A stretch of 64,000 nt of DNA from Hyphomonas oceanitis SCH89 (GTDB lineage Bacteria > Pseudomonadota > Alphaproteobacteria > Caulobacterales > Hyphomonadaceae): NCBI RefSeq assembly GCF_000685295.1, contig NZ_ARYL01000002.1:1-64000 (forward strand). Direction: 5' to 3'. The notes beneath the pieces are model-generated. The model was not told where the DNA came from. It did no database searches and saw only the letters and a program-made list of their open reading frames with translations. Of the stretch, positions 1 through 3,341 are shown in pieces (within the stretch, counting starts at the first letter, position 1; every line of letters starts with the position of its first letter). The position numbers and the translations under genes are program-made.

Positions 1-2447
1 TTTCGCAGCCTGAAGCCGTGCCCCCTCCGACCGCTGCGCGGCCACCTCCCCCGCTTGCGGGGGAGGATAAGAAAAGGCCCGCGCTGCACACGCTCTATAT
101 CTCGCCGCTGAAGGCGCTGGCGGTGGATGTGCAGAGGAATCTCATGGCGCCGGTGGGCGACATGGGGCTGGATATAAGGATCGAGACACGCACGGGCGAC
201 ACGCCGTCCCATGTGCGCCAGCGGCAGCGGCGCAACCCGCCGGACGTGCTGCTGACGACGCCGGAGCAGCTGGCGCTTTTCATTGCGTCTGACCATGCGA
301 AGGACTTCTTTGCCGACCTCAAATGCGTGATTATTGATGAGGTGCACGCGATGGCCGCGTCGAAGCGGGGGGACTTGCTGTCGCTTGGCCTGGCCACGCT
401 GGCGGAATGGGCGCCGGCCTGCCGGTTCATCGGGCTCTCCGCGACAGTGAAGGAACCGGAGGAACTGGCGCGGTGGCTGGATGTGCGGCCTTCTCCCCTC
501 CGTCAGCCGGCTGCGCCGTCTGCCACCTCCCCCGCAAGCGGGGGAGGAGAAGCGGGTGGTGTACGCATCATCCGTGCCGAGGGCGGCGTTTCGGCTGAGG
601 TGGATATCCTTGTCTCGCGTGAGCGGATTCCGTGGTCGGGGCATTCGGGGCGGTTTGCCGTGCCGGAAGTGTATGAGGCCATCAAAGGCGCGAAGATGGC
701 GCTGGTGTTCGTGAATACGCGCAGCCAGGCCGAGTTCATGTTCCAGGAGCTGTGGCGGGCGAATGAGGACGGGCTGCCGATTGCGCTGCACCATGGCTCG
801 CTGGCCAGGGAGCAGCGTGTGCGCGTCGAGGCGGCGATGGCCGCCGGGCAGCTGAAGGCGGTGGTGTGTACGTCGACGCTCGATCTCGGCATTGACTGGG
901 GCGAGGTGGACTTGGTGATCCAGATGGGCGCGCCGAAGGGCGCCGCGCGCCTGATCCAGCGGATCGGCCGGGCGAACCACCGGATGGACGAGGCAAGCCG
1001 GGCCGTGCTGGTGCCGACGAACCGGTTCGAGGTGCTGGAATGCCGTGCGGCGGAGGCGGCGGTCGAGGCGGGCGAGATTGATGGCGAGGGCTTGCGGCAG
1101 GGATCGCTCGACGTGCTGGCGCAGCATGTGATGGGCCGGGCCTGCGGCGACGGGTTCGACCTCGCGCCGCTCTATGATGAGATCATCCGCGCGGCGCCCT
1201 ATGCCTGGCTCGACTGGGAGACGTTCGAGCGGATTGTCGATTTCGTGGCGAGCGGCGGCTATGCGCTGAAGACCTATGACCGGTTCCACCGGATCGTGCG
1301 GCGGCCCGACGGGCGCTGGGTGGCGCGTACACGGCAGGACGCGCAGCAGCACCGGATGAATGTCGGCGCGATTGTCGAGGCGGTGCAATTGTCGGTGCGG
1401 CTGGCAAGCTTTGTGGGGAAGGGGGAAGGCCCCCTCCGCCCTGCGGGCACCTCCCCCGCAGGCGAGGGAGGATCAGGCCGAACGGTGCGGGCGGGGCACA
1501 AGCTGGGGGAGGTGGAGGAATATTTCATCTCGACACTGGTGCCGGGCGACACGTTCCTGTTCGGCGGCGAAGTGCTGCGCCTGATCGGCGTCGAAGGGCT
1601 CGATGCGCTTGTGGTGCGGGCGGTAGGCGAGAAGCCGGCCATACCGAGTTACAATGGCGGGAAATTTCCGCTGACGACCTTTCTGGCCGAGCGGGTGCGC
1701 CAGATGATCCATGACCCGGCGCAATGGGACGCACTGCCGGGGCCCGTGCGCGAGTGGTTTGAAGTACAGGTGCGGCGCTCCAGCATTCCGCCGCCGGACC
1801 ATTTGCTGGTGGAGACTTTCCCGCGCGGCGAGCGGCATTACATGGTCTGCTATCCGTTCGAGGGGCGCCTCGCGCACCAGACGCTGGGCATGCTGCTGAC
1901 GCGGCGGCTGGAGCGGATGGGGGCAAAACCGCTGGGCTTCGTGGCGAGCGAATATGCGATGTCGGTCTGGGCGATGGAGGACATGTCTGGGCTGGACATG
2001 GGCGACTTGTTCCATCCGGACATGATGGGCGACGATCTGGAGGAGTGGCTGGACGAGAGCGCGCTGATGAAGCGGACCTTTGCGCACTGCGCGCAGATCT
2101 CCGGCCTGATCGCGCGCAACCTTCCGGGCAAGGAGAAGAATTCGCGGCAGGTGAGCTTTTCGTCGGACCTGATCTATGACGTGCTGCGCAGCCACGAGCC
2201 GGACCATATCTTGCTGCAGGCAGCGCGGCAGGATGCGGCGACAGGCCTGCTGGACGTGCGGCGCCTGTCGGACATGCTGGTCCGGATACGCGGCAAGATC
2301 GACCACAATGTGCTGGACCATATCAGCCCGTTTGCCGTGCCGGTCATGCTGGAGATCGGGCGGGAGCCGGTGTTCGGGGCCTCGGTGCAGGACGCGGTGT
2401 TGGGGGAGGCAGAGGCGGACCTGGTGCGGGACGCGATGCGGGATTAG
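1..2447 (+). CDS. Ligase-associated DEXH-box DNA helicase (Lhr-like), 5' truncated
   Basis: The reading frame is open to the left edge of the window, so the true start and the Walker A motif lie upstream; the GTG at 18 is not the start. Seen in order, numbered from that GTG: motif Ia ISPLKAL (28-34), TTPEQ (80-84), DEVH box (107-110), SAT (141-143), motif IV LVFVNTRSQAE, motif VI QRIGRANHR, then the long C-terminal region of the Lhr family. The family is known to sit with an ATP-dependent DNA ligase, an exonuclease and PdeM in a DNA-damage operon; PdeM follows here, which fits. It should be an ATP-driven 3'-5' DNA helicase acting in repair. Oddity: three copies of one palindromic repeat are translated in frame as Pro/Gly/Ala-rich inserts (about residues 1-17, 159-178 and 471-486), all in places where the family has variable loops. 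Confidence 0.93.
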   Translation, partial: SQPEAVPPPTAARPPPPLAGEDKKRPALHTLYISPLKALAVDVQRNLMAPVGDMGLDIRIETRTGDTPSHVRQRQRRNPPDVLLTTPEQLALFIASDHAKDFFADLKCVIIDEVHAMAASKRGDLLSLGLATLAEWAPACRFIGLSATVKEPEELARWLDVRPSPLRQPAAPSATSPASGGGEAGGVRIIRAEGGVSAEVDILVSRERIPWSGHSGRFAVPEVYEAIKGAKMALVFVNTRSQAEFMFQELWRANEDGLPIALHHGSLAREQRVRVEAAMAAGQLKAVVCTSTLDLGIDWGEVDLVIQMGAPKGAARLIQRIGRANHRMDEASRAVLVPTNRFEVLECRAAEAAVEAGEIDGEGLRQGSLDVLAQHVMGRACGDGFDLAPLYDEIIRAAPYAWLDWETFERIVDFVASGGYALKTYDRFHRIVRRPDGRWVARTRQDAQQHRMNVGAIVEAVQLSVRLASFVGKGEGPLRPAGTSPAGEGGSGRTVRAGHKLGEVEEYFISTLVPGDTFLFGGEVLRLIGVEGLDALVVRAVGEKPAIPSYNGGKFPLTTFLAERVRQMIHDPAQWDALPGPVREWFEVQVRRSSIPPPDHLLVETFPRGERHYMVCYPFEGRLAHQTLGMLLTRRLERMGAKPLGFVASEYAMSVWAMEDMSGLDMGDLFHPDMMGDDLEEWLDESALMKRTFAHCAQISGLIARNLPGKEKNSRQVSFSSDLIYDVLRSHEPDHILLQAARQDAATGLLDVRRLSDMLVRIRGKIDHNVLDHISPFAVPVMLEIGREPVFGASVQDAVLGEAEADLVRDAMRD
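20..67 (+). repeat. Palindromic element, copy 1, inside the helicase gene
   Basis: A C-rich lead (CCCCCTCCG) and a variable GC segment are followed by a perfect 10-bp inverted repeat, CCTCCCCCGC (45-54) and GCGGGGGAGG (57-66), with a TT centre. It is read in a different frame from copies 2 and 3: the bases of the left arm are read as Pro codons. No stop codon is introduced. Confidence 0.85.
494..548 (+). repeat. Palindromic element, copy 2, inside the helicase gene
   Basis: It has the same layout as copy 1: CCCCTCCG lead, variable GC segment, then CCTCCCCCGC (526-535) and GCGGGGGAGG (538-547) around an AA centre. It is translated as roughly SPLRQPAAPSATSPASGGGE between the SAT motif region and the strand VRIIRAEGG, a linker position. 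Confidence 0.85.
1429..1472 (+). repeat. Palindromic element, copy 3, inside the helicase gene
   Basis: CCCCCTCCG lead, short GC segment, then CCTCCCCCGC (1450-1459) and the imperfect right arm GCGAGGGAGG (1462-1471) around an AG centre. It is read in the same frame as copy 2, giving TSPAGEGG, just before the conserved LGEVEEYF stretch. The one-base arm mismatch suggests it is older or drifting. Confidence 0.82.
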
Positions 2448-2561: not shown

Positions 2562-2621
2562 GCTTGGGAGATGTGGATTCTGCGTTTGACCCGGTTCGCG
2601 ATGCGGGCCATTTTCGGTGTC

Positions 2622-3341
2622 ATGACGGCTCTCGCTGCGCGCCCCTCGGATACGATGCTGCACTTGGCCGGCGAGCTGCTGTTGCCGCTGCCGGAAGGCG
2701 CGCTGTGGTGGGCGGCGGAGCGCGTGCTGGTCGTGTCGGACCTGCACCTGGAAAAGGGCAGTGCCTATGCGGCGCGGGGGCAGATGCTGCCGCCCTATGA
2801 TACCGGGGCGACGCTGAACCTGGTCGAGCGCCTCTGCGCGGCGCTGCGGCCGCGGACGGTGATTTCGCTGGGCGACAGTTTTCATGACCGGGCGGCCGAG
2901 CTGCGCCTGCCCGCTCCTTACGCGGCGCGGATACAGGCGCTGACCGGGGCGCATGACTGGGTCTGGGTGGAGGGCAACCATGACCCCGACCCGCCAGCGT
3001 ATTTGGGCGGACGCGCGGCGAAAGTGTTGCGGATCGGCAGCCTTGTGTTCCGGCATGAGCCGACCGGCGCGGCGGGCGAGATTGCCGGCCACCTGCATCC
3101 GGCGGCCAAGGTGAAGGGGCGCGGGCGACTGGTGCGGCGGCGCTGTTTTGCCAGCGACGGGGCGCGGCTGGTGATGCCGGCCATGGGCACGTTCACCGGC
3201 GGGCTGAATGTGCTGGACGCGGCCTTCGCGCCGCTCTTCCCGGAAGGCCTGATGGCCTTTGCGCTGGGCGGCGAGCGCGTATTTGCGGTGTCAGCCAAAA
3301 GCCTTGTGCCGGATGTGGCCGCAAGCCGCTGGCGGCTTTAG
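2622..3341 (+). CDS. pdeM: Ligase-associated DNA damage response endonuclease PdeM
   Basis: A calcineurin-like metallophosphoesterase of about 239 aa. All metal-binding motifs are visible: SDLHLEKG (DxH), GDSFHD, EGNHD, FRHEP and GHLHP. The family is known to work with the ligase, exonuclease and helicase of the same operon in processing damaged DNA ends; the helicase gene ends 175 bp upstream. The open frame extends back to 2499 but that part translates the inverted repeat, so it is not coding. ATG 2622 is chosen because it gives a short leader before the conserved LHLAGELLLPLPEGALWW; ATG 2655 is nearly as good. Its 3' end overlaps the convergent asmA-like gene by 4 bp. Confidence 0.9.
   Translation: MTALAARPSDTMLHLAGELLLPLPEGALWWAAERVLVVSDLHLEKGSAYAARGQMLPPYDTGATLNLVERLCAALRPRTVISLGDSFHDRAAELRLPAPYAARIQALTGAHDWVWVEGNHDPDPPAYLGGRAAKVLRIGSLVFRHEPTGAAGEIAGHLHPAAKVKGRGRLVRRRCFASDGARLVMPAMGTFTGGLNVLDAAFAPLFPEGLMAFALGGERVFAVSAKSLVPDVAASRWRL

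Follow-up and report, generated by a model that had tools for sequence, protein, structure and literature searches.

We found that the gene for a ligase-associated DNA-repair helicase of Hyphomonas oceanitis SCH89 contains three in-frame copies of a short palindromic element, very probably a REP/BIME-like repeat that inserts in frame and persists within genes mainly in permissive loops. The window, that is, the whole stretch of 64,000 nucleotides that was analyzed, opens at base 1 of contig C2 in a draft genome of 4.28 Mb in 188 contigs, and its helicase reading frame (3–2447) lacks the N-terminus. The features are as follows:

3..2447, + strand: ligase-associated DNA damage response DEXH box (Lhr-type) helicase (TIGR04121, DEXH_lig_assoc; 996.8 bits against a cut-off of 850)
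21..71, + strand: element copy 1, site 1 (lead 21–29, small hairpin about 30–42, core palindrome 45–66, tail ATAAG 67–71)
494..552, + strand: element copy 2, site 2 (lead 494–502, small hairpin about 503–523, core palindrome 526–547, tail AGAAG 548–552)
1430..1476, + strand: element copy 3, site 3 (lead 1430–1438, small hairpin about 1439–1448, core 1450–1471, tail ATCAG 1472–1476)
2619..3341, + strand: PdeM, ligase-associated phosphoesterase adjoining the helicase (TIGR04123; 217 bits)

The unit measures about 50–60 bp and consists of a C-rich lead (CCCCTCCG), a variable small hairpin, a 22-bp C/G palindrome and a short tail, which is often ATAAG among the copies of the same genome. The first two cores are perfect palindromes and the third has one mismatch, while the sequence of the small hairpin differs among the three copies. 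A sequence-only reading had described one palindromic element with a common C-rich lead lying three times in frame in a DNA-repair helicase, two copies being read in one frame and the third in another, and had noticed no further copy in the window. All of this was borne out: each core follows the lead and a small hairpin, the three copies share one open frame in which copy 1 is read PPPLAGE, copy 2 TSPASGGG and copy 3 TSPAGEGG, and a search of the 64 kb at up to three mismatches gave three matches, all in the helicase (mean 0.03 and at most 1 in 100 shuffles of the window). The same pattern search gave no match within PdeM, and the one RNA-family match in the window, RNase P, lies away from the element. 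RNA folds of the copies are moderately better than those of shuffled sequences (z −1.8 to −2.2), and the fold of copy 3 pairs otherwise than its core palindrome.

Across the named loci and the window, 6 of 8 forward copies share one frame and all 11 reverse copies share one, counts that are not independent because the spacing of pairs fixes the relative frame. Those frames yield Pro/Ala/Ser/Gly-rich peptides, with a basic HLPR-type reading once (L035), and the reverse half of site 1 (on contig C1 and in the homologues P0002, P0003 and P0015) is read in a different frame as SSPACGGG or SSPASGGG. The stop-free tails of genic copies carry no evidence, because an open frame requires them. Comparing inserts with the empty sites of several relatives by eye, we found no clear target-site duplication or clean boundary at the helicase sites, and the flanking loop residues also differ between filled and empty sites.

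The truncated start of the gene was clarified by P0002, a full-length H. oceanitis protein that is the closest other one to the window helicase (97% identity; best 120 listed of 8000 scored homologues). Compared with it, the window frame is short by about 86 residues, of which 65 belong to the helicase and about 21 to another copy of the element, in reverse orientation. The missing N-terminal half was found at C1:~131000 (locus L005 of G000, the same genome), where the helicase N-terminus is followed by the reverse element and then by the 3′ end of a gene that we take to be ELM1-like. Copy 1 and the reverse element on C1 are the two halves, forward and reverse, of one inverted pair; in P0002 the pair runs ...SRAGSSSPACGGGAPKGRRG-L-SQPEAVPPPTAARPPPPQAGEDKK..., the first half matching C1 and the second the start of the window. 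As judged from these alignments, the earlier reading is thus amended in that site 1 is one half of an inverted pair.

We considered a gene truly split in this genome and rejected it, as P0002 unites both halves and the join on C1 looks chimeric. Because P0002 joins exactly these two halves, the C1 join to the ELM1-like gene is most likely an assembly chimera formed at the repeat, the alternative being a true rearrangement. In two of five relatives examined (G105 and G106; ORF translations) the ELM1-like gene is followed by a presumably EamA-like transporter, and a search of the own genome for this transporter gave nothing close (best match 26% identity). Three further contig ends of the same genome, the end of C8, the start of C10 and the end of C74 (L013, L023 and L026), are at most about 40 bases away from a copy of this repeat or of its sister. 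Contig ends placed beside repeat copies in this way suggest that the repeats interrupt assemblies and gene calls.

Beyond the window the element is dispersed. A whole-genome search, which the sequence-only reading had proposed, gave 14 further copies outside the helicase gene when the sister motif was counted too. Every one was scored as intergenic, but one, located on C1, is in fact the missing half of site 1. Within the family, the core pattern was present at up to one mismatch in 46 of 105 genomes and 6 of 10 genera, compared with none for a reversed-pattern control in the same 105 genomes; in a class-wide sample, 5 of 337 genomes, the own genome included, had the exact pattern. Copies often form inverted pairs with regular spacing: 30 pairs are arranged (−,+), 12 of them at 95 bp, and 47 are arranged (+,−), 24 of them at 50 bp. 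The latter often join the core to a sister motif (CACTTCCCCCG), and most of the 25 such pairs listed combine CACCT with CACTT. Pairs end in inverted repeats (e.g., C12:75721/75813). The lead was recognizable in 197 of the 214 copies with enough upstream sequence, and these 197 contain 67 distinct small hairpins, with a mean stem of 4.1 compared with 2.7 after shuffling. The element was delineated by patterns and scripts, as a MAFFT alignment had misplaced the variable small hairpin. In 15 of 20 non-genic (−,+) pairs the spacing leaves a remainder of 2 on division by 3, which is the phase of the genic pairs; 7 of these 15 belong to the common 95-bp class.

We then classified 217 distinct copies, drawn from 23 of the 46 positive genomes and including the sister motif CACTT at two mismatches: 173 are intergenic, 6 lie at gene edges, 27 in the helicase (12 genomes) and 11 in other genes. 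This sample left out 12 places (the start of G029:C22, three in G037 and all of G039–G042), and from seven further genomes only the 60 listed loci were included (G075 has no exact match). Genic and intergenic calls come from a codon-usage score trained on helicase orthologues, which may miss other genes; window copy 1 was set to genic by hand because the contig start had made the script call it an edge, and the C1 half of site 1 stayed counted as intergenic. When neighbours were merged, 147 units resulted (122 non-genic, 19 in the helicase, 6 in other genes), so that 19 of 25 genic insertion units fall in the helicase. If the gene is taken as about 2.5 kb and the genome is assumed to be 3.6 Mb, the 19 helicase units among 147 give p = 3e-37, a value that is too small given shared descent. 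Judging by these calls, one repair helicase is the main genic refuge of the repeat in the sampled genomes. The other hosts are GlyS in two genomes (L125 and L195), DnaE2 in three (L139, L145 and L152) and the linker of PDH-E2 in one (L187); the repeat is in frame in all three genes, at roughly one place in GlyS and in DnaE2. DnaE2 is an error-prone polymerase with a damage-response function.

The earlier reading had called for an alignment with orthologues, in which L033 and L034, the nearest of the named loci (91% and 89% identity), lack all three stretches. L035 (89%) carries its own insert at site 1 and none at site 2, and most of the 80 named helicase orthologues (the best 80 of 168 relatives) are free of inserts. 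Palindromic inserts were found at site 1 in L035, L053 and L060; at site 2 in L038, L048, L051, L053, L055, L060, L062, L081, L088 and L090; and at site 3 in L048, L053, L055, L060 and L062, with varying orientation, frame and type. L088, from a Caulobacteraceae MAG, carries two paired copies of another repeat, which has 23 matches in that genome; this is the only case outside the window's family in which dispersal of an insert within its own genome was seen. L090 bears the label Alphaproteobacteria and clusters in the tree with rows from Rhizobiaceae MAGs. It has a palindrome of similar layout; its genome gave 31 hits of a loose palindrome pattern, with the exact unit in the helicase only (ten loci inspected). 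A score that had been trained on another family placed all 17 sampled copies of the L088-type motif in the L088 and L090 genomes between genes.

On the best tree these states require 4 changes at site 1, 8 at site 2 and 3 at site 3 (15 gains or losses), and scored as any insert they require 9, of which 6 are forced by well-supported (starred) branches; the tree is a quick build without the insert sites from 80 of 81 rows (L076, partial and with an unscored site-3 expansion, was dropped), with long branches for L088 and L081 and site states assigned by ourselves. The insert label is clustered, since so low a number of changes was reached in just 6 of 500 shuffles, and some inserts are therefore inherited.

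Among very close relatives, seven homologues were read and six aligned. H. oceanitis P0002 has sites 1 and 2 filled and site 3 without insert; P0003 (94%) has sites 1 and 3 filled and another insert type at site 2; P0004, from H. chukchiensis (92%), and P0016 (89%) have only that other type, at site 2; and P0015 (90%) has the site 1 insert alone. The types in P0003, P0004 and P0016 were judged at the protein level. In P0003 and P0004, the other site 2 type reads PPCKGGVRGGS...DPHPASPFQGEE and replaces the insert of the window. Because inserts differ among proteins that are 89–97% identical to the window's, the three loops are, as far as these alignments tell, polymorphic on a short time scale. 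The sequence-only reading is also amended in that other insert types occupy the same loops in orthologues.

That the inserts fall in variable loops, as had been expected, agrees with two lines of evidence. In a survey of 81 sequences covering residues from the start of L033 onward, the three insert sites were the only inner loops varying by at least 10 residues; one lies between helicase motifs I and Ia, one follows motif III, and one precedes the C-terminal part. Four expansions at these loops (L058, L100, L086 and L096) lack a strong hairpin, and a hairpin alone is no proof of an insert because the scan gave 20 background hits elsewhere in the 81 genes. In an AlphaFold2 model of L053, which carries all three inserts (42-row alignment; mean pLDDT 76), eight stretches fall below pLDDT 50, and the three longest (69–88, 237–272 and 562–607) lie at the inserts. 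The proposed mapping on a structure therefore held in that all three inserts appear as low-confidence coil, with the qualification that it was carried out on the predicted model of an orthologue. Outside the sites, dN/dS is 0.070 for the window and L033 and 0.062 for the insert-free pair L033–L034, and it ranges from 0.014 to 0.097 over 12 pairs, the highest value belonging to the insert-bearing genes L053 and L060. Because all values are far below 1, the helicase outside the insert sites is under purifying selection.

In the account that we favor, the palindromic repeat would spread through genomes of the Hyphomonas family as single units and inverted pairs, with copies presumably moved by some enzyme. 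Selection would act as a filter, purging most genic insertions, so that surviving copies would be mostly intergenic and genic survivors would be found where the mostly Pro/Ser/Ala/Gly-rich encoded peptide is harmless. The three length-tolerant helicase loops would gain, lose and regain inserts from the repeat active at the time, and the insert-bearing protein presumably works. Dispersal, pairing, absence in orthologues, recurrence, the match with variable loops and purifying selection are the observations on which this account builds, and the earlier suggestion of an element that spreads while tolerated in loops is supported by the dispersed copies and the insert-free orthologues. The two outcomes that the sequence-only reading had named as refuting insertion, orthologues of distant genera that all carry the same residues and a genome without other copies, did not occur.

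Permissive loops alone do not obviously account for one gene holding so large a share of the genic units. The mobilizing machinery, or the state of the DNA during repair, may instead steer insertion toward repair genes or toward this one gene, with permissive loops merely deciding which hits survive. This agrees with the concentration in the helicase (19 of the 25 genic and 19 of all 147 units, with a p value that ignores shared descent), with the occurrence of a different repeat family in the same loop of L088, with the three genomes in which the damage-response gene DnaE2 is a host, and with the bias to repair genes described for other families in the available text of Di Nocera et al. 2013 (PMC3733652). 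GlyS and PDH-E2 are non-repair hosts, however, the loops also expand without strong hairpins, and no common target sequence was seen at the sites by eye; we consider such targeting unlikely.

A more specific idea concerns the pathway made up of the helicase, a ligase, an exonuclease and PdeM. Conjecturally, this pathway handles hairpin or palindromic DNA, and repeats that slightly alter their own processing enzyme would be favored, which, in addition to its permissive loops, would be why the helicase is hit. We give this idea little credence; if true, palindrome families across the alphaproteobacteria would converge on the same loops through favored insertion in the gene of the processing enzyme.

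It is quite improbable that the inserts are adaptive decorations, in which peptides or mRNA hairpins alter the activity or expression of the helicase and are positively selected. Recurrence at the same sites and the frame preference of reverse and forward copies would fit this, and altered repair proteins were speculated on by Di Nocera et al. 2013 (PMC3733652, available text). The reverse half of site 1 is nevertheless read in another frame on C1 and in three homologues, the peptide changes with orientation, type and frame, close homologues vary in their inserts and most of the 80 orthologues have none, and dN/dS shows no clear rise. That low-complexity loop sequence converged on palindromes, or that the inserts are assembly artefacts, is barely conceivable: the loops are GC-rich and encode Pro/Gly, background hairpins occur in these genes, the window begins at the edge of a contig and the element on C1 sits at a join that looks chimeric, but core and lead recur between genes, the dispersed copies refute this reading, the same inserts occur in proteins from other sources and shuffled windows average 0.03 matches.

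Among known repeats, the element resembles BIMEs/REPINs in its inverted pairs with regular spacing, alternating orientation and pairing of two sister core motifs. BIMEs/REPINs have been reported as linked with Y1 (RAYT) transposases, whereas no such link was found for the helicase element: the own genome has no match to PF01797 (Y1 transposase), and in 105 family genomes the element occurs in 8 of 21 with a match compared with 38 of 84 without (Fisher p = 0.63; scored per genome regardless of adjacency, with 16 of the 21 above the curated cut-off). A RAYT as the mover was rejected on these grounds.

GTAG- and CGTC-tagged REPs are short, mostly intergenic palindromes, often in inverted dimers, and copies in frame were described in many repair genes, DnaE2 among them, as well as in tRNA synthetases, and two Xanthomonas species carry different REPs at roughly the same position of recB (Di Nocera et al. 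2013, PMC3733652, available text). Chance targeting of repair genes was judged hard to believe in that text. The likeness lies in mostly intergenic palindromes, inverted pairs and in-frame copies in repair genes, as far as that text goes; the helicase element differs in having no end tag and in its two-hairpin unit with a C-rich lead. Of 212 copies, 3 have GTAG no more than 6 nt from the 3′ end, and 28 have GTAG or CTAC at some point in the 45-nt lead. The CGTC architecture (an unpaired CGTC end, an 8–9 bp stem opening with A-T pairs, a CCA tail) was likewise not seen: only 5 of the 212 copies have CGTC or GACG that close to the 3′ end, 60 of 212 have one of them somewhere in the 45-nt lead (TCCGTC in 22), and the core stem begins with CC. 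The available text of PMC3733652 describes no gene with recurrence at three fixed loops, and in it the term 'lhr' has no occurrence (Additional file 3 lies outside this count). Literature searches, with supplements outside their coverage, found no paper on palindromic insertions in an Lhr-type helicase.

The Rickettsia palindromic elements (RPEs), to which the sequence-only reading had likened the inserts, are described in the available texts as palindromic repeats of 105–146 bp read in frame inside conserved proteins and, per a review, Rickettsia-specific; different RPE groups lie near each other in orthologues, and Gmk, an enzyme carrying an RPE, proved active in a test but with altered affinity (PMC2229807, PMC3767692). 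The likeness stands for the mode of life, as the helicase element is in frame in conserved proteins and missing in some helicase orthologues (for GlyS, DnaE2 and PDH-E2 the comparison consists of the in-frame copies), but RPEs are not the sole precedent, in-frame REPs in repair genes having already been published. Compared by description and not by sequence, the helicase element differs from RPEs in being mostly intergenic, with genic copies chiefly in one gene. RIMEs have a palindromic architecture. These Rhizobium-specific intergenic mosaic elements are intergenic repeats of rhizobia (PMC2573895, available text), and by description they share with the helicase element an intergenic location and palindromes. 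As for MITEs, which have terminal inverted repeats and a target-site duplication, pairs of the element end in inverted repeats and no clear duplication was seen at the helicase sites.

We therefore regard the element as a new BIME/REPIN-like family with an RPE-like habit, belonging to neither tagged superfamily by the tag tests, with RPEs and RIMEs compared by description. In-frame repeats in repair genes were known before (Rickettsia RPEs; Di Nocera et al. 2013, PMC3733652, as far as the available texts go); new are a family without end tags, the predominance of a single host gene and the repeated use of fixed loops. That palindromic repeats inside genes favor DNA-repair genes is a puzzle, and the natural allele pairs described here, with inserts of more than one repeat kind present, absent or swapped, make this preference testable. 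They also suggest a route by which mobile DNA may supply new disordered peptide to a conserved enzyme.

A second palindromic family, TCCTTCGACTTCGCTCAGGATGAG, was observed in the window as two inverted pairs (2476–2499/2537–2560 and 42855–42878/42904–42927), with 4 exact matches compared with a mean of 0.00 in shuffles. One of these pairs sits between the helicase and PdeM.
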